Shown: in pieces, positions 43,975-61,098 of the stretch
How positions within the stretch are numbered: the stretch's first letter is position 1
Layout: each line of letters opens with the position of its first letter
Source: an uncultured Opitutia bacterium
Lineage (GTDB): Bacteria; Verrucomicrobiota; Verrucomicrobiia; Opitutales; UBA953
Direction: 5' to 3'
Assembly: GCA_945957395.1 (NCBI GenBank)
Contig: CAMFKE010000002.1
Location: 124,001-188,000 of the forward strand
Length of the DNA stretch: 64,000 nucleotides
The notes under the pieces: generated by a model
What the model saw: only the letters and a program-made list of their open reading frames with translations
The model's database searches: none
Told to the model about the DNA's origin: nothing
Translations under genes and position numbers: made by a program

Positions 43975-44050
43975 TGGTGGGCCCTGCCGGATTTGAACCG
44001 GCACTCAAGGGTTTATGAGACCCCTGCTTTGACCATTAAGCTAAGGGCCC
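43975..44050 (-). tRNA. tRNA with CAT anticodon, probably tRNA-Ile2 (lysidine type), alternatively Met
   Basis: Acceptor GGGCCCT/AGGGCCC, D-stem GCTT/AAGC, anticodon stem GGGGT/ACCCT with loop CTCATAA, T-arm GCCGG-TTCAAAT-CCGGC, CCA encoded. The 5' part GGGCCCTTAGCT and the overall pattern are nearer to bacterial tRNA-Ile2 than to elongator Met, but the identity needs the TilS determinants. The integrase gene starts 137 bp beyond its 5' end. Confidence 0.85.
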
Positions 44051-44186
44051 GAAAGCATGATAAAACCTGAAAGAGACCGCATGAACACTGGCTTGGACGG
44101 GGATTCATGGACCGTCTCGGAGCGTCTCCGTCATGCGCTTGACTGCCGGTGAATGTCGGCGCATGTGTAGCAGAGAGTCGTAACAC

Positions 44187-45386
44187 ATGGACGAAACACC
44201 GAAAGCCGAGAAGCGCCGTAAGCGCGGAAGTGAAAAGAACCTGCAAAAGCGCAATGGCATCTATTACTTCCGGCAAGACCTAAACGGGAAGGATGTATGG
44301 CGCTCGCTGCGCACGACGAACCCCGCCGTGGCCAAGGCGGCGCGCGACAAGATCTTGCGCGAGGCGAAGGGGGACCGCGAGGCGCGGCTTGAGGCGATGA
44401 GTCCGCGCAAGGTGGCCACGCTGGGCGACATCGAGCGCGCGTATGTGGAGCGCTGGTCGATACCGGACAACCGCGACACGCGCCGGGGCAACATGAACGC
44501 GCTGCTCAACCTGGCGCGCCGCGGGCTGGGCCTGCCGAGCACGCAGGACGAGCGGGAGGTGTCGCTGGACCGGGTGACGCCCGGGGTGATCATGGCGGGC
44601 CGGCAAAACCTCATCGAGCGCGCGGACGAGGAAGACTACGAGGCGAGAGCGCAGGCCATGGCGTCGGCGAACTCGCTGTGGCGCAAGGCGCGCGCCGTGT
44701 TCACCTACGAGGATGCGTTCGCCGGCATGCACCTGGGCGACACCGTGCCGGCGCTGCGGCGCGTGAAGCACCTGAAGGTGCAACTCAAGACCTACTTCGC
44801 CCCGCTGACCACCGAGGAGGGCGACAAACTGCTGGGCGCCCTGGACAAGCTGCGCGGCGAGAGGCCGGGGCTGTACCTGGCGGCGTCCCTGATGCTGTAC
44901 TGCGGCTGCCGCAACATGGAGGCGGCCTACGCGCAGCGCGAATGGATCGAGACGGAGGCGGACGGCTCGCGCTGGCTCAACATCACGCGCCGCGCATACT
45001 TCAAGCCGAAGGCGACGCTGCGCCTCGTACAGATACCTCCGGCGCTGGCCGACGAACTGCTCGCGCTGGGCGGCTCGCCGTGGCTGTGCACGCCGGACAT
45101 GACGACCACCGACCGCGAAAACCTCGTGCTGCGCGACCTCAACGAGTGGATGCGCGGTGTGCTGCCCGAGCGCACGGCGTACGATCTGCGCAAGCAGTTC
45201 GGCAGTTGCATCGCCGTGGCGGAAGGCCTGTGGGCGGCGCAGACGGCGCTGGGACACGCGAGCATCACGACGACCCAGCGCTGGTACGCGCGCAAGATCC
45301 GCAGCGTGGCGCCCGTGCGCCTGACTTTCGCCGACAAGGGCGCAAAAAGGGGCGGCGCCGATGCCGACACCGCCCCTGCCACATGA
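44187..45386 (+). CDS. int: Tyrosine recombinase / phage integrase
   Basis: 399 residues. The N-terminal half has a YYFRQDLNGKDVWRSLRT strand region (arm-binding type) and a SAM-like core-binding part. The catalytic domain has Arg I in YCGCRNMEAA, box II in RTAYDLRKQFGS, where the usual His of HxLR is Tyr, then LGHASITTTQRWYAR with the His and the nucleophile Tyr. It would integrate the element. It faces the structural genes head-on; their stop codons are 18 bp apart. Confidence 0.92.
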   Translation: MDETPKAEKRRKRGSEKNLQKRNGIYYFRQDLNGKDVWRSLRTTNPAVAKAARDKILREAKGDREARLEAMSPRKVATLGDIERAYVERWSIPDNRDTRRGNMNALLNLARRGLGLPSTQDEREVSLDRVTPGVIMAGRQNLIERADEEDYEARAQAMASANSLWRKARAVFTYEDAFAGMHLGDTVPALRRVKHLKVQLKTYFAPLTTEEGDKLLGALDKLRGERPGLYLAASLMLYCGCRNMEAAYAQREWIETEADGSRWLNITRRAYFKPKATLRLVQIPPALADELLALGGSPWLCTPDMTTTDRENLVLRDLNEWMRGVLPERTAYDLRKQFGSCIAVAEGLWAAQTALGHASITTTQRWYARKIRSVAPVRLTFADKGAKRGGADADTAPAT

Positions 45387-46678: not shown

Positions 46679-47686
46679 TTAGGCGACGATGTTCATGGCC
46701 ATGAGGCCGAGCGGGTTCTTGCAGCGCAGCTGGAAGATGGCGTCGACGATGGCCTTCTTGCCGCCGCCGAGCTCGGGCAGCATCTTGTGGTTGGGCGAGC
46801 GCACATAGCCCAGCGAGAGCATGTTGAAGTCGACCACGAGGCCCGACTTGTGCGTGCCGGCGGTGTCGGCGCCGGTGTTGGCGTCGAGCAGCAGGTTGGG
46901 CGTGGCGTGCAGGTCGATGGTGGCGCCGTCGAGCACGACGCGCTCCACCACATTGCAGATCACCTTTTCATCGCCGGCCTGGTAGCGGCGGGTGCCCTCG
47001 TAGCCGGTGGCCACGGGCTGGGTGCGGGTGAACTCGGAGAACTTGCCCTTCAGTTCGATACCCAGGAAGGCGTCGAGCTCCTGAGCCTGGCCGCGCGTGC
47101 TCTTGAAGAGAGCCTGCACCATGAGACCCAGCTGGGCCTCGGTGAAGTTGGCGAGGGTGCCGGAGTAGATCTGGGCGGCGGCGGGGCGGTAGGCGGCGGG
47201 CACGGGTTCGTGCGTCTGCGCGGTGGCGCTGGCCCACTTCATGAAGCCGCGGGTGCGGTAGGGCGTGGTGGTCTTGTCCTCCACGGCGGATTCGCCGTCG
47301 GAGAGGGCGCGCGCCTCGATGGCCTGCTTGAGGATGACATAGGCCTCGTCGATCTGCACGCCGAGCTCCTCCATCACCTTGGCGGTGGCGGATTCGGTGG
47401 CGTCGGTGAGGTCGGACACGCCGACATTGTACCACTCCTTCTGGGCGTAGGTGGCGAGGGTGTCGCCGAGGTTGGTGTTGAAGCTGGAGGCGTCCTCCAG
47501 GTCGTGCACGCCGGAGTGCCCCTTGCGCGTATATGCCTTCACCGTCACCTCGCTCTTCATGGAGACGAGTTTCTTTTCGGCGGGGAGCATGGACGCGAAG
47601 GGCGTCTTGTCCGAGTTGAGGCGCTGGAGCACTTTCTCCATGTCGCGCGGCTTGTTCTTGATATCGACTTCGTAGGCGATGGCCAT
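46679..47686 (-). CDS. Major capsid protein, SU10/DUF5309-like
   Basis: 335 residues. The N-terminal arm contains DKTPFASMLPAEKKLVSMKSEV, then GVHDLEDASSFNTNLGDTLATYAQKEWYNVGVSDLTD and YVILKQAIEARAL, a pattern seen in SU10-type (HK97-fold) capsid proteins. The C-terminal part is beta-rich. It forms the icosahedral shell. It follows the scaffold-like gene, as usual. An AAGGAA sequence 9 nt before its ATG is one of the few SD-like sites on the element. Confidence 0.72.
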   Translation of the reverse strand: MAIAYEVDIKNKPRDMEKVLQRLNSDKTPFASMLPAEKKLVSMKSEVTVKAYTRKGHSGVHDLEDASSFNTNLGDTLATYAQKEWYNVGVSDLTDATESATAKVMEELGVQIDEAYVILKQAIEARALSDGESAVEDKTTTPYRTRGFMKWASATAQTHEPVPAAYRPAAAQIYSGTLANFTEAQLGLMVQALFKSTRGQAQELDAFLGIELKGKFSEFTRTQPVATGYEGTRRYQAGDEKVICNVVERVVLDGATIDLHATPNLLLDANTGADTAGTHKSGLVVDFNMLSLGYVRSPNHKMLPELGGGKKAIVDAIFQLRCKNPLGLMAMNIVA

Positions 47687-47748: not shown

Positions 47749-48585
47749 TCAGGCGCCGGGCAGGGTGCTCATGATGAGGTTGAGCATGGAGCCGGGCGCA
47801 CCGCGGCGCAGGCCGTCGCCGTCGAGCTTGACGGCGGCGCCCTTGGCGGCGGAGGGGGGAGGCGTGGCTCCGCCCGTGGGGAGCACGGGGGGCTTGGCCG
47901 CCGGCTTGGAAGAGGGTGCCGGGCGCACGCCGCGCGCGCCGCGACCGGCGAGGATGTCGGCGGCGATGCGGTGGGCGTTGGGAAGGCGGTCCAGACCGGG
48001 CACCTCGGCGAACACGGCGCGCACGCGGGCGCTGTCGGGGTGCTTGGAGTCGAAGTGCGAGGGGAACTCGCGCCGGGCGGCGGCGACGGCCGATTCGCGA
48101 GCGGCGAGAGCGGCGCGCTCGCGGGGGATGTCAGCGGAGAGCTCGCGGTGGGCGGCGCCGAGCTTCTTGCGCACATCGGCGGAGGTGATGACGACGGGCT
48201 TGCCGTCGTCGCCGGCGCCCTCGTAGCCGTCGAGGTTGGAGTAGAGCCACTCGATGAGCTCGCCCAGCTGGGTCTCGCGCGCGGCGATGGAGGCGGAGTC
48301 CTTGTACTTGGGGGCGTCGGCGGAAACGGGGGCGGCGGAGCGCGCGGAGTCGGCCTCGGCGCGAAGGCGGTCGCGCTCGGCGCGCAGCTCGGCCAGTTCG
48401 GCGTCGCGCGGGTCGGCCGCAGCGGCGTCGGCCTCGGACGCCGAAGGCTCGGTGTCGGCGGCGGAGTCGGCGGCCGTGGAGGTGTCCACGGAGGCGGCGG
48501 CCGTGGAGGTGTCGCCGGAGCCTTCGGGGGCGAGGTCGTCGGCCTCGGCGCGAAGGCGGGCGAGGTGGATGCGGTGGTGTCTCAT
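47749..48585 (-). CDS. Capsid scaffold-like protein
   Basis: 278 residues, Ala/Glu/Asp-rich. Long coiled coil (DAELAELRAERDRLRAEADS and RESAVAAARREF) with Ala/Thr/Ser-rich linkers; the C-terminus is Pro/Ala-rich and ends in a short hydrophobic helix (GSMLNLIMSTLPGA), a common capsid-contact motif. The position directly upstream of the capsid gene supports a scaffolding role. It begins a new unit at a TTGAC-type block. Confidence 0.6.
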   Translation of the reverse strand: MRHHRIHLARLRAEADDLAPEGSGDTSTAAASVDTSTAADSAADTEPSASEADAAAADPRDAELAELRAERDRLRAEADSARSAAPVSADAPKYKDSASIAARETQLGELIEWLYSNLDGYEGAGDDGKPVVITSADVRKKLGAAHRELSADIPRERAALAARESAVAAARREFPSHFDSKHPDSARVRAVFAEVPGLDRLPNAHRIAADILAGRGARGVRPAPSSKPAAKPPVLPTGGATPPPSAAKGAAVKLDGDGLRRGAPGSMLNLIMSTLPGA

Positions 48586-48622
48586 GCGCCGACCGTCCGC
48601 GAAGCGCCCACAGGCGCGTCAA
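48586..48622 (-). promoter_or_regulatory. TTGAC-type conserved block before the scaffold gene
   Basis: On the coding strand: TTGACGCGCCTGTGGGCG, then CTTCGCGGACGGTC, ending 5 nt before the ATG. It shares the pattern TTGACnC..CC.GTGGGCG.TTCG..GAC.GTC with the blocks at 52323 and 54270. It follows a strong terminator (48644-48675), so it plausibly starts transcription. Confidence 0.6.
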
Positions 48623-48643
48623 CCGTGGAGGGCGAAAAGCAGC

Positions 48644-48675
48644 GCGGGCGCATCCGGCATGCCGGATACGCCCGC
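48644..48675 (-). terminator. Terminator upstream of the scaffold unit
   Basis: A long near-perfect hairpin: GCGGGCG / CGCCCGC outside and ATCCGGCATGCCGGAT inside. It lies 26 bp after the stop of the coiled-coil gene, with TTTT a few bases downstream on the minus strand. Confidence 0.8.
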
Positions 48676-48701
48676 TCAGGCACCCCGCCCCGCCCCGTCG
48701 A

Positions 48702-49283
48702 TCAGGGCGCCGGAGAGGGTTCGGATTCGTCGTCGTCGGGAGCGGCGACGATGTCGCCCAGGAGGAGCTTGAAGGACTGGGCGGCGGAGGCGGCGCCCAG
48801 GTGCCACTTGGTCTGCGCGTCGGACAAGGAGGGCTCGCCGGCGGCGTGGAAGGAGCCCCACGCCTCGCGGTCGAGGAGCAAGGCCACGGCGTCCCACACA
48901 TCGACCCGGTGGCGCGCCTCGCGCAGGGTGCGCCTGGCGGCCTCGATCTCGGCGGGTGCGGCGGCGCACGGGGCGGCCGTGGCGCGCGAGGCGCGCTCCT
49001 GCTCGGCGGCGGCGAGCTCGCCGCGCAGCTCGGTGAGGGCGTCCTCGGCGGAGGTGAGGGCGTCGATCTGGTCGTGCACCGTGGCGTTGGCCCGGTTGAG
49101 CCTGCCCTGCAGCTCGGCGAGGCGCTCGCGCTGAGCATCCACGGCGGACTCGGCGGCGTCGAGGCGGGCTTTGAGCGACTCGGATACGGCGAGGCGGTCG
49201 GTGTAGCGGGCGCGGCGAACGAAGCCTAGCCGGCACAGTAGGCGCTCGGGCAGCGAGGCGGAAGCGAGGGGACCCGGGAGCAT
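48702..49283 (-). CDS. Coiled-coil phage structural-region protein
   Basis: 193 residues. After a short basic start, residues 30-130 form a long coiled coil (LKARLDAAESAVDAQRERLA). The C-terminal part is compact (SFKLLLGDIVAA) and acidic at the end. Unknown; it lies between the portal-side genes and the scaffold. Confidence 0.65.
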   Translation of the reverse strand: MLPGPLASASLPERLLCRLGFVRRARYTDRLAVSESLKARLDAAESAVDAQRERLAELQGRLNRANATVHDQIDALTSAEDALTELRGELAAAEQERASRATAAPCAAAPAEIEAARRTLREARHRVDVWDAVALLLDREAWGSFHAAGEPSLSDAQTKWHLGAASAAQSFKLLLGDIVAAPDDDESEPSPAP

Positions 49284-49292
49284 GGGCGGGGG

Positions 49293-49844
49293 TCAGTTGC
49301 GGCGGATGTGGGCGCGCAGGTGAAGCAGGCCGGAGTGCACCGCATAGGCGGCGCGGCCGACCTTCCAACCGAACTCCGGGTAGTCGCAGCCGTAGGCGAT
49401 GTCCTCAAGAGAGGCGCCGACGCCGTCGAGTCCGTCGATAAGCGAGGAGGCGAAGGACTCGCCGCCGCCCACGACGAAGGGAGCGCGGGCGGATTGCGCG
49501 GCGAGGTGCGCGGCGCAACCGGCGTCGCGAAGCCATTCCTCGGCGTCGGCGAGGTGGGCCTCGGCGCGGCGCATGGAGGCGGACGGGGCGATGCGCGCGG
49601 CGTGCTCGAGCGAGCGGCCGGCGAGCATGACGCGAGCGAAGGCGTCGATGAGGCGGGGTTGGAAGGAGGCGACCTCGCCGGCGGTATCGACGGGTGCGGA
49701 CGGCTCGGCGGCAGGCGCCTGCTCGGCCTCGGGTTCCGAGGAAACCTCGGGAGCGGAGGGTACGGCTTCGGCGGCGGTGGCAGCGGGAGCGGAGGCGGTG
49801 GCCTCGGGGGCGGAGGTTTCGGCGAGGGGGAGTTCTTCGGGCAT
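49293..49844 (-). CDS. Phage protein with an acidic Ala/Pro tail and a helical C-terminal domain
   Basis: 183 residues. The first 60 are almost only Ala, Pro, Glu, Ser and Thr. The rest is helical, with DAFARVMLAGRSLEHAARI and CDYPEFGWKVGRAAYAVHSGLLHLRAHI. No family recognised. A downstream companion of the portal gene. Confidence 0.65.
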   Translation of the reverse strand: MPEELPLAETSAPEATASAPAATAAEAVPSAPEVSSEPEAEQAPAAEPSAPVDTAGEVASFQPRLIDAFARVMLAGRSLEHAARIAPSASMRRAEAHLADAEEWLRDAGCAAHLAAQSARAPFVVGGGESFASSLIDGLDGVGASLEDIAYGCDYPEFGWKVGRAAYAVHSGLLHLRAHIRRN

Positions 49845-49876
49845 ATCGGTGGTGGGTTGGGTTTGGGAAAAGAGGT

Positions 49877-52012
49877 TCAGCCGAGCACGGGCTCGGCCAT
49901 GCGCTTGCCGGTGAGGGCGTTCTCGCGCTGCTTCACCTGGCCGGACAGGTGCTTGATGCGCTCCTCGAGGATGGCGCGGGAGGTGTCGTCCATCTTGGCG
50001 GCGATGGCGGGGTTCTTGCGCAGGTTGTCCATGAGGCGCTCCAGGCGGGCGGCGAAGTTCTGGCCATCGAGCAGCATCTCGGGCTCGATGCCGTTGGAGA
50101 TCTTGGTGAGGTTGGAGTCCTCGTCGGCGAGCTCGCTGCGCAGGGCGTCCTGCACGGAGCGCACGCCGCCGAGGAGGGCCGGGTCGATCATGCCGGAGAG
50201 GTACTCGATCAGCCAGGGGCGGTCGAACACGCCCACGGTGTCCAGCGGCAGCAGGTACTTGCCGACCAGCTCTCCCACGGTCCTGACCCACTCGAGGTTC
50301 GAGGTGCGCGAGTCGAACGAGACGCGCAGGTCGTATCGGCCGCGGATGTCGGCGCGCGAGAAGGTGACCGGGGTGCGGCCGCGGCCCGTCACGCGGGCGA
50401 GGTCCTCGTCGGTGAAGTACTGCTGGCAAAGCGCGAGCATCTGAAGGAGCACCTCGCGCGCCACGGTGGTGACGACGGCGGCGCGGGCCCTGGAGCGGGA
50501 CTGGACGATGAAGGGGTCGGCGGAGCCTGGGCGCCCGAAGTACTCGCCGACGCGGCGGTGGATGTCGTCGCGGTGTTTGTCGTTGCCTACCGGATACGCG
50601 CCCGGGGACATGAAGGAGATCTCGCCGGCGCGCCACTCGCGGATCTTGGAGTACGGCCCCCACGAGAGGCGCACATCGGGACGGCCCGCCGGCACCTTGA
50701 CGGGCGGTGCCGTGGCGATGCTGGTGTGGTCGTTGAAGCTGTCGTTGAGCAGCTTCAGGGCGTACTGGTCGGTGATGACGAGCTCGGGGATGCCGCGCGG
50801 CGCGAGCAGGCCGCGCGAGGTCTGCTCGCAGGCGGCCCAGGCGAACGGGTACTTGCCGTGGTCGAAGGGCAGGATCTCGCGGTCGTGCGCCGCCTCGTCG
50901 ACGGAGCCGTGGAAGGCGACATGGTAGACGGCCGGGTAGCCGTCGTCGTTGGCGGTGCGGAAGTAGGCGGTGACGACCTCGAAGAGGCCCTTGCGGGCGA
51001 GCGGGTCGGCGGTGCCGGCCCAACCCGTGGAATCGGAGGCCGGGGCCACGCCGGGCGCGAGGATGCCGAGGTGGCTTACGCCCTCGTGCTCGAGGGCCTT
51101 GTCGATGAAGGAGCGGCGGTAGCCCATGGTGTGCTCGCGCTCCTCCAGCTGCACGCGGGTGAGCCACTCGCGCAGGAAGATGACGCGCGCGTCCTGAAGG
51201 TGCGTGGTGTTGAGAGGCAGGAAGATCTCCTCGTAAAGGCGGTGCGCCCGCACGACCGGGCGGTTCTCGACCACCTCGGGCACGGCGACCTCGGGCGATT
51301 CGCCGAGGCGCAGGGCGCGCAGGGCGCGGCGCAGGGCCTTGGGGCGCACGCCTTCGAGGTGGCCGGAGAGCCATTCGACGGCGGCGGATTCGGCGGCCTC
51401 GTCGAACAGCATGGCGCGCACGGTCTGCGCGGCGGCGTCGGCGTGGCCGCCGTTGGCTTCGTACTCGGCGGCGAGGAGGTGCTCGGAGGTGATGACGCGC
51501 GGCACGAGGGCGGTGCGGCGCTCCCAGTAGACGCCGAAGACGGCGCGGCCCGGGGCGTCGGCGTAGAGCCAGCGCAGGAAGAGGCGCCACTCGTCGGACC
51601 AGGTGTCGCCGAGCTTGTTCTCCACCACCCAGGCGGCGAGGCGCTCCATGCGCGCGGCGAGTCCGTCGTCGGAGCCCTCGACGCCGCGGATGCTCATGCC
51701 GGAGACAGCCTCCATGCCTAGGTCGACGGCCTCGTTGACGAGCATGTCGGCCATGCGGATGCGCATGTCGGAGGCGCCGTCGAACGGGAAAGGCTCGGCG
51801 CCCAGGGCGCCGCGGCGCTTGCGACCGTCGGGCGACTGACCCTCCCAATGGCACGCGAGGGTGTTGTCGGCGAAGCGGCGGCGATCCCAGAGGAGACCGG
51901 AGCCGAGGGAGACGATGGAGAGCATCTCGGCCTTGAGGTTTTCGAGCTGCTCGTCGCGCACCGGGGCGGTGCCGCCGGCATCGCCGGTGCCATGGAGAAG
52001 GTTGTCGGACAT
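49877..52012 (-). CDS. Phage portal protein
   Basis: 711 residues. The N-terminal region has FPFDGASDMRIRMADMLVNEAV, a pattern of long portal proteins of podovirus and related phages. The middle has YRRSFIDKALEHEGVSHLG and YALKLLNDSFNDHTSIATAPPVKV; the C-terminal part is helical with ARLERLMDNLRKNPAI. It forms the dodecameric DNA entry ring. It lies directly after the terminase region, as expected. Confidence 0.82.
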   Translation of the reverse strand: MSDNLLHGTGDAGGTAPVRDEQLENLKAEMLSIVSLGSGLLWDRRRFADNTLACHWEGQSPDGRKRRGALGAEPFPFDGASDMRIRMADMLVNEAVDLGMEAVSGMSIRGVEGSDDGLAARMERLAAWVVENKLGDTWSDEWRLFLRWLYADAPGRAVFGVYWERRTALVPRVITSEHLLAAEYEANGGHADAAAQTVRAMLFDEAAESAAVEWLSGHLEGVRPKALRRALRALRLGESPEVAVPEVVENRPVVRAHRLYEEIFLPLNTTHLQDARVIFLREWLTRVQLEEREHTMGYRRSFIDKALEHEGVSHLGILAPGVAPASDSTGWAGTADPLARKGLFEVVTAYFRTANDDGYPAVYHVAFHGSVDEAAHDREILPFDHGKYPFAWAACEQTSRGLLAPRGIPELVITDQYALKLLNDSFNDHTSIATAPPVKVPAGRPDVRLSWGPYSKIREWRAGEISFMSPGAYPVGNDKHRDDIHRRVGEYFGRPGSADPFIVQSRSRARAAVVTTVAREVLLQMLALCQQYFTDEDLARVTGRGRTPVTFSRADIRGRYDLRVSFDSRTSNLEWVRTVGELVGKYLLPLDTVGVFDRPWLIEYLSGMIDPALLGGVRSVQDALRSELADEDSNLTKISNGIEPEMLLDGQNFAARLERLMDNLRKNPAIAAKMDDTSRAILEERIKHLSGQVKQRENALTGKRMAEPVLG

Positions 52013-52035
52013 GGGGAGGCGGCGCAGGGCGCCGC

Positions 52036-52070
52036 AGGTGGGAGTTGAGAGGCGGGAGGTGGGAGTTTAA
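52036..52070 (-). repeat. Heptad array upstream of the portal gene
   Basis: Units AGGTGGG, AGTTGAG, AGGCGGG, AGGTGGG, AGTTTAA in phase on the plus strand, so CCCACCT-like on the coding strand, starting 24 nt before the ATG. Confidence 0.8.
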
Positions 52071-52076
52071 ACCGGA

Positions 52077-52322
52077 TCAGCAGGCGCAGCGGGAGGCGCG
52101 GCCGGAGCCGAGCAGGAGGCGGCGGCGGCCGTAGCGCACACCGCGCACCCGGGAGGCGAGCGCCTCGACGGAGGAGCGCAGGTAGAGGCGGGGTCCGCCG
52201 TCCGGGGCGCTCACCGGGGAGAGCACGCCGGAGCGTACGAGCTCGGCGAACAGGCGGTCGTTCACGCCGAGGGCGTGGCGGGACTCCTTGTAGCCGAGGA
52301 GCGGCGGAGGGCTCAGCGTCAT
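52077..52322 (-). CDS. Small helix-turn-helix protein next to the terminase gene
   Basis: 81 residues. GYKESRHALGVNDRLFAELVRSGVLSP is a helix-turn-helix of the excisionase/MerR-like type, followed by a wing (GGPRLYLRSSVEALASRV) and a basic tail. It could be a small terminase subunit or a transcription factor for late genes. The start at 52322 is used; a start nine codons upstream lies within the conserved TTGAC block. Confidence 0.65.
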   Translation of the reverse strand: MTLSPPPLLGYKESRHALGVNDRLFAELVRSGVLSPVSAPDGGPRLYLRSSVEALASRVRGVRYGRRRLLLGSGRASRCAC

Positions 52323-52360
52323 GCCGGGGACGGTCCCCGAAGCGCCCACGGCGGCGTCAA
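52323..52360 (-). promoter_or_regulatory. TTGAC-type conserved block before the HTH-portal unit
   Basis: Coding strand: TTGACGCCGCCGTGGGCG, then CTTCGGGGACCGTCCCC, ending 3 nt before the ATG. The second half is nearly palindromic. It lies directly after the terminase stop. Confidence 0.6.
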
Positions 52361-52379
52361 GCGAGAAAAGCCCGGGCGC

Positions 52380-54269
52380 TCAGTAGTAATTGGAGGACTC
52401 GCCGTCGGGCTCGGAGGCGAGGCGGGAGGCGATGGCGGCGGAATCGGCGAGGTCGGCGGTGAAGAGGTAGCGCAACACATCGATCGGGTCCTTGGTGGCG
52501 CCCTCGTTGCCGTCCTTGCCGGTCCAGGTCTTGAGGGCGTAGAGGAGGTTGCGACACTCGGAGGAGATGCGCAGGCGCGGGCGGTTCATGAAACCGAGCG
52601 GCAGGGCGCGGTCGTAGTTGAGGGCGTCGACGATGAGCTCGCAACCGGTCTCGACGGTGGCGCCGGAGGCGGTGTCGAAGAAGACGCCGAGGTCGTCCAT
52701 GCCGGAGATGAGGGTCTTGGGGGTGTCGCGCTCAAGCTTGGGGGCGGAGGCGAAGCGGCTGTCGATGATGCGGGAGGCGATGCGTTCGCGCGCGCCGTTG
52801 GATTCGCGCCACGCGGCGACATCCTCGCCGCCGGAGGGGAGCCCGTCGGGGGCGCGCTCGGCGTCCTTCCAGCCTTCGAGCTTGGCGATGAGGCGCTTGT
52901 AGGCGGAGAGGCCGAAGCCGAGGGACTCCTGCCCGGGGCCCTTGCGCCCGTCGGGCTTGACGCCGTCGTACTCGGCCCAGGGGCCGAGGAGGCCGTGGCC
53001 GCCGTCGACCGGGTAGAGCATGTCGGGCCACTCGCGGTAGATGTAGACCTCGTCCTCGTGGAATCTGGCCCAGAGCATGAACCAGTTGCGCGCGCTGGAG
53101 GGGTCGCACGCCATGTGGTTGGTGCCGCCGGAGGGGATGTCGGCGGGGTCCACCACATGCACGGCGTCGTCCACGGCGAAGCGAACTCGCATGGATTTGG
53201 TGGCCTGGCCGTAGCAACGCTCGCGCACGGCGACCTCACCGGCGGGCACATTGATGTCGAAGATCTCCCGCGGGTTGCCGTAGGGGTTGTCGCCGGTGTG
53301 GAAGTAGACGACGGCGCGGCGCGGGTCGGGGCAGCGCTCGATGCGCGGGACGCGCTTGAAGCCCGGCGAGGGCGCGGGCGGCTCGAGCACATCGGAGACC
53401 ATGTCGCGCACGGAGGAGGCGCGGTCGTAATCGGGGGAGCCGGAGGCGTCGCGCGGGACGAGCCAGGCGGTCTCCTCGAAGGCGACGGAGGCGCCCTCGC
53501 GGAACTGGCCGACGAGCGGAGTGTAGCCGCGCACGGGCGTGAACGAGACGAGCACGCGGCCGGTGCGGGTGGCGACACGGGCCTCCAAGGTCTTGAGCCA
53601 CGGGGCCGGAAGCAGCTCGTCGCACCAGATGATGTCGCACTCGCCGCCCTCGATGGTGTCGTCCTTCTGCTCGTAGTTGCGGAAGACGCAGGAGGAGCCG
53701 TTGGCGAGGGTGAACTTGTCGCCGGCGAAACCGTTCTGCTGTGAGTACGAGATGTACTCGGGGTTGCCATGGCGTGTGCGGCGCTGCTCGGCGGGAAGCA
53801 TGAGCCACAACAGCGCATGGTGGTACTCGACCGACATCTGGCGCGTGGAGTGGAAGACCCAGGCGCGGGCGCCGGGCTTGCTCTGAAGCAGGCGCATCAC
53901 GGTGCGCGCGCAGTACTGGGTCTTGCCGGCGCGATTGCCGCCCTGCATGAGGAGCACCTTGATGGAGGCCGGGTAGCCCAGCTTGCGCAACACGCGAAGG
54001 GAGAGCGACCTGTCGGCGTCGGTCATCCAGGGCCAGCCCATCATGAGGTCGGTCAGGCGCCACATGCTCGGCTCGTACCCGTAGCGGTACGGGTCCGTCT
54101 TCTCGAGCACGAGCAACTCCTCGCGGCGCACCAACATGTCGACCAGCGCGTCCGGGTCCATGGTCAACACCTGCTCGCGCGTGGGCACCGGCATGACCGG
54201 GTGATCGGGGTGCGTCGGCACGAACTCGCCGGCACTGACCAGGCGGCCGTCTTTGAAAACAATCTTCAT
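52380..54269 (-). CDS. terL: Terminase large subunit
   Basis: 629 residues from the ATG at 54269. ATPase Walker A QGGNRAGKTQ near residue 115 and Walker B ECDIIWCDELL near 210. The C-terminal nuclease half has HMACDPSSARNWFMLW and other acidic positions. It packages DNA into the head via the portal. A short C-terminal tail ends ESSNYY. It is preceded by a TTGAC block and a long heptad array. Confidence 0.88.
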   Translation of the reverse strand: MKIVFKDGRLVSAGEFVPTHPDHPVMPVPTREQVLTMDPDALVDMLVRREELLVLEKTDPYRYGYEPSMWRLTDLMMGWPWMTDADRSLSLRVLRKLGYPASIKVLLMQGGNRAGKTQYCARTVMRLLQSKPGARAWVFHSTRQMSVEYHHALLWLMLPAEQRRTRHGNPEYISYSQQNGFAGDKFTLANGSSCVFRNYEQKDDTIEGGECDIIWCDELLPAPWLKTLEARVATRTGRVLVSFTPVRGYTPLVGQFREGASVAFEETAWLVPRDASGSPDYDRASSVRDMVSDVLEPPAPSPGFKRVPRIERCPDPRRAVVYFHTGDNPYGNPREIFDINVPAGEVAVRERCYGQATKSMRVRFAVDDAVHVVDPADIPSGGTNHMACDPSSARNWFMLWARFHEDEVYIYREWPDMLYPVDGGHGLLGPWAEYDGVKPDGRKGPGQESLGFGLSAYKRLIAKLEGWKDAERAPDGLPSGGEDVAAWRESNGARERIASRIIDSRFASAPKLERDTPKTLISGMDDLGVFFDTASGATVETGCELIVDALNYDRALPLGFMNRPRLRISSECRNLLYALKTWTGKDGNEGATKDPIDVLRYLFTADLADSAAIASRLASEPDGESSNYY

Positions 54270-54310
54270 GAGGCCCGGGACCGTCGCCGAACCGCCCACG
54301 GCGGAGTCAA
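54270..54310 (-). promoter_or_regulatory. TTGAC-type conserved block before terL
   Basis: Coding strand: TTGACTCCGCCGTGGGCG, then GTTCGGCGACGGTCCCGGG, ending 3 nt before the ATG. Best alignment is with the block at 52323. A terminator and an 11-unit heptad array lie just upstream. Confidence 0.6.
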
Positions 54311-54315
54311 GGAGG

Positions 54316-54392
54316 AAGGTGGGAGGTGCGAGGTGGGAGATTGAAGGTTAAAGGTGGGAGATGGGAGGTGGGAGGTGCGAGGTACGAGGTGG
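54316..54392 (-). repeat. Eleven-unit heptad array upstream of terL
   Basis: Eleven units in unbroken 7-nt phase on the plus strand: AAGGTGG, GAGGTGC, GAGGTGG, GAGATTG, AAGGTTA, AAGGTGG, GAGATGG, GAGGTGG, GAGGTGC, GAGGTAC, GAGGTGG. The phase is kept although the units differ. Confidence 0.9.
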
Positions 54393-54397
54393 GCGCG

Positions 54398-54433
54398 AAA
54401 AAGCCCCGGCGAGGGTGTCTCGCGCGGGGCTTT
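54398..54433 (-). terminator. Terminator between the cargo block and terL
   Basis: Stem AAAGCCCCG / CGGGGCTTT with an inner GCGAG/CTCGC pair. It lies about 70 bp after the stop of the 162-aa gene and separates the cargo genes from the packaging genes. Confidence 0.85.
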
Positions 54434-54505: not shown

Positions 54506-54994
54506 CTATCCGACAGGCGGGGTGTCGTTAAGCCCCTTGTTATCCTGCCACGAATCCGCCTTGAAGGTGGGGAGCTTCCAGTCGGCGATTCGGCCATCCT
54601 CGGCGATGTTGAGGATGATGTAGTCGCCGTATCCGTCATCCCCGTGGCAGAGCAGCGAGTCGGGGACATAGTAATCCTTCCATTTCAGCAGCTTTTTCCC
54701 GCTGTCGTCACCGAGCCAATACTCCCCGGCATCGCATACCTTGTAGTGGATTCTGGCCGTCGTTCCAAATGGCCACCCGATTACCGTCCCGGTGTTCAGG
54801 TCGATGACCGGAACCCAAAGGTCGCCGCTTCGCATCGGCACTTTGTCGCCATCGGTGTCCTCGATGCCGTTGATTTTCGCGTCTTCCCAATACCGAACTT
54901 CGGCGCTTACGATGAGCCGCGAAATACCGGCAGGATAACCAGCGGATGGAGCCGAACGCGCATAGGCGCCGGGTTGTTTCTGTTCCTGTTCCAT
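54506..54994 (-). CDS. Unknown cargo protein (162 aa)
   Basis: Contains WEDAKINGIEDTDGDKVPMR, DLWVPVIDLNTGTVIGW and YEWLGDD-like acidic, aromatic stretches; a beta-rich soluble fold. Family not recognised. It has a strong SD (AAAGGGAG, 9 nt before the ATG) and lower GC than the surrounding genes, so it was probably acquired recently. Confidence 0.7.
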   Translation of the reverse strand: MEQEQKQPGAYARSAPSAGYPAGISRLIVSAEVRYWEDAKINGIEDTDGDKVPMRSGDLWVPVIDLNTGTVIGWPFGTTARIHYKVCDAGEYWLGDDSGKKLLKWKDYYVPDSLLCHGDDGYGDYIILNIAEDGRIADWKLPTFKADSWQDNKGLNDTPPVG

Positions 54995-55049
54995 GTTATA
55001 AATCTCCCTTTGTTTTTAGTTTCCGGATGCGCGTCGCTCATCCTTGTTG

Positions 55050-55739
55050 TTAGCACGCATCGGGACGCCCTCCGCAGGAAAGCCATGCAGCAGCAGCCAC
55101 GATCGGAACCTGTCCGTTCCCGGTGAGTCGCAATCCGTCCACCTCGGAGGCCACCCCATCAACCATGTATGACTCGCGGTCGAAGGTTTCCCAAATGCCG
55201 CCACGAAGTTCCGGCAGCATTTCCATTTCTGCATCGAGGGCGTTCCGTAGTTCGCCGTTACGGTCGGAGTATGCACGAAGCCAGTATCTCGGCCGATTGT
55301 GGTCTGCACCCAAGTCCGCCGCCGAAACGCGAACCGCCCGGCAAGCGTATCCCATTTCAGTGAGGTCGCGCGCGGCTCGTTCGATTGCGCGCCGGGTGAC
55401 ATTTTCGGCGAATACGAATGGAGGAGCCACATCTGCGACGATTCGCCGCATTTCCGGCCAGAGGTCGGGCGCGTTATTGCGACCTCTCGCGGCTCCTGAA
55501 TATGCCTGGCAGGGAAATCCGCCAGAAACGACATCAACACGACCTCTCCACGGGCGTCCGTCAAATGTGCGAACATCATCCCAAATCGGGAACGGCGCGA
55601 GGCAGCAGTCGTTTTGCCGTGCTGCGAGGACGGCGCGGGCGTGTTCGTCGTACTCGACTGCGCAGACGCAGCGCCAGCCGAGGAGTTTTCCGCCGAGTAT
55701 GCCGCCACCAGCGCCTGCGAAAAGTGCCAGCTCATTCAT
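55050..55739 (-). CDS. DNA (cytosine-5-)-methyltransferase
   Basis: 229 residues, short for the family. Motif I LALFAGAGGGILGGKLLGW, motif IV SGGFPCQAYS (catalytic Cys), motif VI FVFAENV, motif VIII LGADHNRPRYW and motif X GNGQVPIVAAAA are all present. The target-recognition part is small. No partner endonuclease is nearby, so it looks like an orphan phage methyltransferase that could mask restriction sites. SD GGAGG 7 nt before the ATG at 55739; an upstream start would add eight residues. Confidence 0.9.
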   Translation of the reverse strand: MNELALFAGAGGGILGGKLLGWRCVCAVEYDEHARAVLAARQNDCCLAPFPIWDDVRTFDGRPWRGRVDVVSGGFPCQAYSGAARGRNNAPDLWPEMRRIVADVAPPFVFAENVTRRAIERAARDLTEMGYACRAVRVSAADLGADHNRPRYWLRAYSDRNGELRNALDAEMEMLPELRGGIWETFDRESYMVDGVASEVDGLRLTGNGQVPIVAAAAWLSCGGRPDAC

Positions 55740-59280: not shown

Positions 59281-59290
59281 GGGGCGAAGC

Positions 59291-59339
59291 AGGTGGGAGG
59301 TGGGAGGTGAGAGGTGGAAGGTGTCAGGCCTGAGGGCGG
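59291..59339 (-). repeat. Heptad array of AGGTGGG type
   Basis: Units AGGTGGG, AGGTGGG, AGGTGAG, AGGTGGA, AGGTGTC, AGGCCTG, AGGGCGG in phase, 10 nt before the ATG at 59280. It also runs over the 3' end of the next gene (stop at 59324). Confidence 0.85.
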
Positions 59340-59647: not shown

Positions 59648-59863
59648 TCAGCGCGGTGAGGATTCGGAGGAGCCCTGGCTCATGTCGGCGCGCGAGCGAG
59701 TCCTGCGCGCCGGCGAGGAAGACACCCAGCGCCTGATGGCGACCTGCAGGCTGTCGGCGGCGGCGCGCTCCTGTTCGTTGCCGGAGCGCGCGAAGGACTT
59801 GAGCGTCCGGATGGCGGCCTCGGCGGCGGCGGCCTTCGTTTCTTCGATGTTCTTGTTTTCCAT
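59648..59863 (-). CDS. First gene of the leftward early operon (71 aa)
   Basis: MENKNIEETKAAAAEAAIRTLKSFARSGNEQERAAADSL, a single long helix with a basic Ser/Arg tail. The ATG at 59863 is the start; a TTG three codons upstream is less likely. Its start codon overlaps the operator next to the divergent repressor, so it may be the cro-like position, although no HTH is visible. Confidence 0.6.
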   Translation of the reverse strand: MENKNIEETKAAAAEAAIRTLKSFARSGNEQERAAADSLQVAIRRWVSSSPARRTRSRADMSQGSSESSPR

Positions 59864-59932
59864 GTCGCGCAACTTTGCACGACGAACAAACGGGCGTCAA
59901 TTGCTTATTGCGCTTTTTTTCGTGTCGCGCAA
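59863..59932. promoter_or_regulatory. Divergent operator region of the repressor
   Basis: TGTCGCGCAA at 59863-59872 is followed by TTGCACGACG at 59875-59884, a near-inverted pair. The same TGTCGCGCAA recurs at 59923-59932, 11 nt before the repressor ATG. This direct/inverted pattern fits repressor sites controlling both directions. The AT-rich stretch between (59898-59920) could hold promoters. Confidence 0.6.
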
Positions 59933-59942
59933 AAAGGACGGC

Positions 59943-60398
59943 ATGAACCACCTGACCCACTCGCTCCAATCGCTGATTTCACTCAGAGGCATGAACCCGC
60001 TGGAAGCCTCGAAGGAGATAGCGACAAGCCCGTCCACCCTGTCGCGAATCCTATCGGAGAGCGTGCTGCCATCGCACGAGACGCTGCGCGCCGTGATGAT
60101 GAATCTGGCGAAAAACGACAAGGAGAGGCGAGAGATAGCGTTGGCGTGGGCGATGGACGAGATGGAGCGAATAGGCGCGGCCGGGCTGGTGGGCTTCTCG
60201 GAGGTGCACTCCACTGAAGATCCCGAGATAAGCCGGCTGAAGATGGCGCTGCTCAATCAGTCGCAGTCCATCGACGCCATAGCGGACCTGGCGGCGGACA
60301 TCGTGGTGACCTGCACGCGCATCACGAACAAGGCGAGAGACTCGGTGGGCAATCCGCCGGCTGAAGAGCCGAAGCGAAAAGCGCGAAAGTCCTCATAA
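59943..60398 (+). CDS. Phage repressor-like HTH protein
   Basis: 151 residues. The N-terminal Xre-type HTH is SLRGMNPLEASKEIATSPSTLSRILSESVLPS. A helical middle (ERREIALAWAMDEMERIG) and a basic C-terminus follow. No peptidase domain, so it is not a LexA/CI-type self-cleaving repressor. Divergent to the early operon with operator-like repeats between, it is the probable maintenance repressor. Confidence 0.72.
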   Translation: MNHLTHSLQSLISLRGMNPLEASKEIATSPSTLSRILSESVLPSHETLRAVMMNLAKNDKERREIALAWAMDEMERIGAAGLVGFSEVHSTEDPEISRLKMALLNQSQSIDAIADLAADIVVTCTRITNKARDSVGNPPAEEPKRKARKSS

Positions 60399-61032: not shown

Positions 61033-61098
61033 GACGAGCGAGAAGCCGAAAGCGGATGGGGAGTCAAGCGCGGCGGCCGCGACGGACCATTGAAAACG

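Follow-up and report, generated by a model that had tools for sequence, protein, structure and literature searches.

The window, a 64,000-nucleotide stretch of contig C2, reaches into a 37.7-kb prophage whose genes and control elements are listed in Table 1. The ends of the element are defined by a 42-bp direct repeat, which spans the anticodon half of tRNA-Met. The tRNA-Met repeat, the integrase and the capsid, terminase, helicase and tail genes together identify the element as a prophage. It also encodes a DnaB helicase, tail fibre proteins and a 2082-aa polyvalent protein, and its transcription runs almost entirely leftward. The nearest named relative by the terminase is a Pedosphaera MAG with 31% identity, and viral contigs reach 40%; the host is therefore probably one of the Verrucomicrobiota. 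In the 2082-aa protein (L033:2162-8410, minus strand), an LPD3 polyvalent-protein domain was found together with a weak match to M78 peptidase, and the protein is possibly injected with the phage DNA. Two genes of lower G+C content at 54506-55735 are likely to be recently acquired cargo. The first of them (54506-54994) differs from its neighbours in having a clear Shine-Dalgarno sequence, AGGGAG. Pyrimidine-rich near-repeats (CACCTCCCACCT...) were seen on the coding strand in the intergenic gaps 54318-54390, 52044-52070 and 59290-59320, and simple repeats resembling them occur in the relatives G023 and G117.

Table 1. Features of the prophage in the window (positions count from the first letter of the window)
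Feature	Position	Strand	Remarks
attL	44013-44054		42-bp direct repeat in tRNA-Met; partner at C2:205668-205709
Integrase	44187-45386	+	DUF6538; Phage_integrase weak
Major capsid protein, SU10 type	46679-47686	-	PF17236, 4e-22
Scaffold-like protein	47749-48585	-	assigned by position before capsid gene; no family match
Block copy 1	48591-48622	-	ATG of scaffold-like gene at 48585; TTGAC to ATG 37 nt
GCGCTGCTTTT	48635-48645	-	exactly 12 nt before TTGAC of copy 1; overlaps terminator end
Terminator hairpin	48644-48675	-	14 pairs, tail GCTGCTTTTC; just upstream of copy 1
81-aa winged-HTH-like protein	52077-52322	-	headed by copy 2; HTH_17 E 0.08, below cut-off
Block copy 2	52329-52360	-	ATG of 81-aa protein gene at 52322; TTGAC to ATG 38 nt
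Terminase large subunit	52380-54269	-	Terminase_6N 5e-07; T4-like
Block copy 3	54279-54310	-	ATG of terminase gene at 54269; TTGAC to ATG 41 nt
Terminator-like hairpin with T run	54398-54433	-	upstream of copy 3; from sequence and fold
TTGAC of likely early lytic promoter	59896-59900	-	37 nt before ATG 59863; A-rich -10 GCAAAG; no block
Likely lysogeny repressor, HTH-like	59943-60398	+	weak HTH match; own TTGCGC starts 35 nt before ATG
Seventh phage TTGAC	61063-61067	-	35 nt before ATG 61032; after terminator 61127-61101; no block

The genes for the scaffold-like protein, the 81-aa protein and the terminase large subunit are each preceded on the coding strand by the block TTGACNCNNCNGTGGGCGNTTCGNNGACNGTC. 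The three copies matched the pattern exactly, far beyond the chance expectation of 0.00 in the window, which bears out the first-pass annotation where it described a block shared by these genes. Its count of three was too low, since the total is five good copies plus a half-copy. When the whole genome was searched with the 32-nt pattern, a fourth copy with one mismatch was found past the window end on the same strand (C2:190021-190052), and scanning the adjacent 98 kb with a weight matrix added, also past the window end, a fifth copy at C2:205506 and the half-copy at C2:197984. These elements begin at 66052, 81537 and 74015, respectively, when the window coordinates are continued past 64000. 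The rest of the genome held no comparable match at up to three mismatches of the 32-nt pattern. All six elements are inside the one prophage and on its transcribed strand. Copy 4 heads a second small HTH gene (90 aa) and copy 5 a tail gene, so that the earlier description of the genes as structural units was too narrow. The block of about 32 bases thus adjoins the starts of five prophage genes.

In the alignment of the five copies, 19 of the 32 columns are invariant (TTGAC, GTG, GCG, T, CG, GAC and GT). The first T of TTGAC lies 36, 37, 37, 38 and 41 nt from the ATG, and the half-copy, which has lost its 3' part, still has an in-frame ATG 37 nt from TTGAC. For the copies in the window the measured 37, 38 and 41 nt agree with the distance of about 37-41 bp noted before; a fixed gap of 3-5 nt between block and ATG was not confirmed, the gaps being 5, 6 and 9 nt. 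That the block is duplicated junk or conserved coding sequence, i.e. a set of recent duplicates or a protein start at the GTG inside it, is extremely improbable. Copy 5 and the half-copy show a clear relationship across some 43 nt and an in-frame GTG is present in copies 2 and 3, but the other copies share the block and not the flanks, and the distance to the ATG is kept. The GTG-to-ATG distances of 25, 26, 26, 27 and 30 nt cover all three frames and therefore the block is not coding. A conserved N-terminal peptide was rejected, as the frames differ.

Terminators had been proposed before the scaffold and terminase copies, and strong hairpins were indeed found at both places. A strong terminator also precedes copy 4. 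With these three terminators and the one before the TTGAC at 61067, transcription must restart in a short gap. For copy 2, no clear terminator was found upstream by folding, and its gene could hence be read through from the terminase gene. The word GCGCTGCTTTT, placed as at copy 1, was also observed exactly 12 nt before the TTGAC of copy 5 and of the half-copy; it occurs four times in the 98 kb, three of them at block sites.

The TTGAC, invariant in the five copies and the half-copy, corresponds to the TTGACA-like -35 element of a sigma-70 promoter. No TATAAT-like -10 element followed at a spacing of 16-18 nt, and promoter-like sites numbered 0 in the stretch of the window scanned. Near the expected place, the hexamer closest to TATAAT agreed with it at 2 of 6 positions, in line with the first reading that no -10 hexamer follows. 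The sigma-54 spacing GG-N10-GC was absent on inspection. The geometry of the host's own promoters was analysed with 588 genes outside the prophage, taken from contigs C2, C3 and C4 of genome G000 (L160-L199). A CTTG[AC] placed so that its TTG lies 35-41 nt ahead of the ATG was seen 34 times, against 10.5 expected (p 7e-10). When the host genes were aligned on CTTG[AC], A was enriched at positions 24-28 and T at position 28, which is a weak -10 element at normal spacing. With a composition-free gene caller the host peak was weaker (18 vs 8.9, p 3e-3), and the same caller also gave a peak in two further genomes from the order, G001 and G079 (p 2e-3 and 2e-6). The peak suggests that leaderless or near-leaderless transcripts are widespread in this bacterial order. 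The TTGAC of the blocks, 36-41 nt before the ATG, has the spacing of a leaderless promoter and equals the host peak. Since the host -10 elements are weak as well, the missing -10 in the blocks is not decisive.

The first-pass annotation had offered a phage-specific promoter or an mRNA element that controls translation. The promoter half gained support from the host -35 position of TTGAC, from the terminators and from the geometry of the early promoter of the phage. For a leader element in the mRNA, either a hairpin or a protein-binding site, the tight placement of the block beside the ATG could be quoted, as could the 7-pair stem possible directly before the ATG in copies 2, 3 and 4, and no Shine-Dalgarno sequence was seen. 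Copy 4 folded better than its shuffles (z -2.1), whereas the other four of the five, copies 1, 2, 3 and 5, did not (z values 0.5, -0.6, 0.8 and 1.4). The stem registers differ among copies 1 to 4, and copy 5 is stemless. A helix conserved in one register and backed by compensatory changes was not found, and no Rfam match was obtained. The upstream terminators leave no other promoter, the TTGAC is at the host -35 position, and a start near the ATG, which the geometry implies, would place the block upstream of the transcript and outside the mRNA. A leader element is very unlikely on these grounds. A hairpin promoter of the N4 virion-polymerase type was also rejected, as the hairpin register varies, copy 5 has no hairpin and the 2082-aa protein gave no polymerase match.

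The phage has further promoters that lack the block and serve as internal controls. The region 59800-59960 contains the divergent repressor and early promoters, which both look leaderless, and two words GTCGCGCAA at 59864 and 59924. This word was found nowhere else in the prophage and is probably the operator of the repressor. The repressor and early promoters have the geometry of the blocks but their -10 regions are A-rich. Among the minus-strand TTGAC of the prophage, 8 of 21 are located 35-41 nt before the ATG of an open reading frame, compared with 0 of 19 on the plus strand; in eleven distantly related phage loci the corresponding figure was about 12 of 341. Since the blocks contain neither GTCGCGCAA nor an A-rich -10, they appear to mark a second promoter class with the same -35 element and geometry.

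The blocks could instead be operators at which a phage repressor or regulator silences ordinary host-type near-leaderless promoters, with the host sigma factor reading a poor -10. Their geometry is equal to that of the host promoters, two copies head small HTH genes, which would suit autoregulation, and the prophage carries a repressor gene. This is nevertheless rather unlikely, because the repressor region's own word is absent from the blocks, the block is not a clear dyad and the sequence at its -10 position is G+C-rich.

The block is probably a phage-specific promoter class for the non-early units, with transcripts whose 5' ends would coincide with the ATG or lie only a few bases from it. 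The TTGAC would serve as the -35 element, placed where the host has it in leaderless genes of its own, and the conserved G+C-rich remainder GTGKGCG-TKCG--GACNGT would replace the spacer and the -10. The remainder might be read by a phage-encoded or phage-modified factor, e.g. an activator or an alternative sigma factor, which after the early stage would allow the host RNA polymerase to open the promoter without a TATAAT-like -10. As the early genes have an ordinary host-type promoter, the block would provide the timing. We infer the transcription start, the factor and the timing of this promoter from the sequence. The phage proteins searched included none recognisable as a sigma factor, an RNA polymerase or a known activator. 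Candidates for the factor are the 81-aa protein headed by copy 2 and the 90-aa protein headed by copy 4, both winged-HTH-like with weak family matches and not detectably alike when compared. Modelling of the 81-aa protein from its single sequence gave low confidence (pLDDT 58), and the structures closest to the model, BldC and the Pukovnik Xis, were not significant matches; the protein is a candidate for a DNA-binding factor or a small terminase.

We then asked where else the block occurs. The exact motif was not found in public viral contigs, and a looser pattern gave four matches there, all of them lacking TTGAC at the upstream position it has in the block. Across 373 genomes from the order and 388 from the phylum, the motif was found five times exactly in this genome and nowhere else, and matches with one or two mismatches within the order were at the level of the reversed control. 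The searches with TerL, portal and capsid returned distant relatives only or none, and no close relative of the phage. In the relatives whose terL upstream regions were inspected, terL usually adjoins the preceding gene and the block is absent. The repeated TTGACCTGCGTAGC of genome G117 was examined as a block and rejected as a REP-like palindrome; this repeat, TTGACCTGCGTAGC...GAAGCRGGTTC, is found at L151:12461, 13232, 18186, 18223 and 18635 and at L152:1861. The block is so far known from this prophage alone.

Both phage-specific promoters and blocks associated with start codons have precedents, of which the SAS/ESAS of Cluster K mycobacteriophages come nearest in layout (PMC3203893). These are likewise short conserved asymmetric blocks, repeated mostly in one orientation directly before start codons, and their function is undetermined (PMC3203893). 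The SAS, however, is the 13-bp GGGATAGGAGCCC accompanied by the ESAS inverted repeats (PMC3203893), and has many copies, mainly outside the structural module (PMC12699233), whereas here about 32 bp occur in five copies with TTGAC at -37 and no inverted-repeat pair. GGGATAGGAGCCC is not contained in the block sequences. Leaderless bacterial promoters also start transcription at the start codon and need no ribosome-binding site (PMC3160421, PMC12340547). Their defining feature is a TANNNT -10 some 12 bp upstream of the start codon (PMC3160421), by which they are recognised (PMC3160421, PMC12340547), whereas the block has a conserved -35 and a G+C-rich block for the -10. Verrucomicrobia are not mentioned in the leaderless surveys PMC3160421 and PMC5397173. 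The late promoters of AR9 are likewise phage-specific sequences that mark one temporal class, but AR9 has its own multisubunit polymerase and leaders of 26-491 nt (PMC5312081), and no such polymerase was recognised here. A promoter that joins a host-type -35, spaced as in leaderless genes, to a conserved G+C-rich sequence in place of the -10 was not found described in the papers searched.

Very little work has been done on how Verrucomicrobiota and their phages control their genes, and the block offers a concrete promoter class for which the early promoter of the phage is an internal control. It is a tentative possibility that a phage factor retargets the host polymerase to the host -35 combined with a different G+C-rich -10 and spacer, giving leaderless late mRNAs. 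If true, such retargeting would be the opposite of the common phage strategy, in which the -10 is kept and the -35 replaced. As a by-product, the analysis yields a signature in the sequence which hints that near-leaderless transcripts may be common throughout the order.
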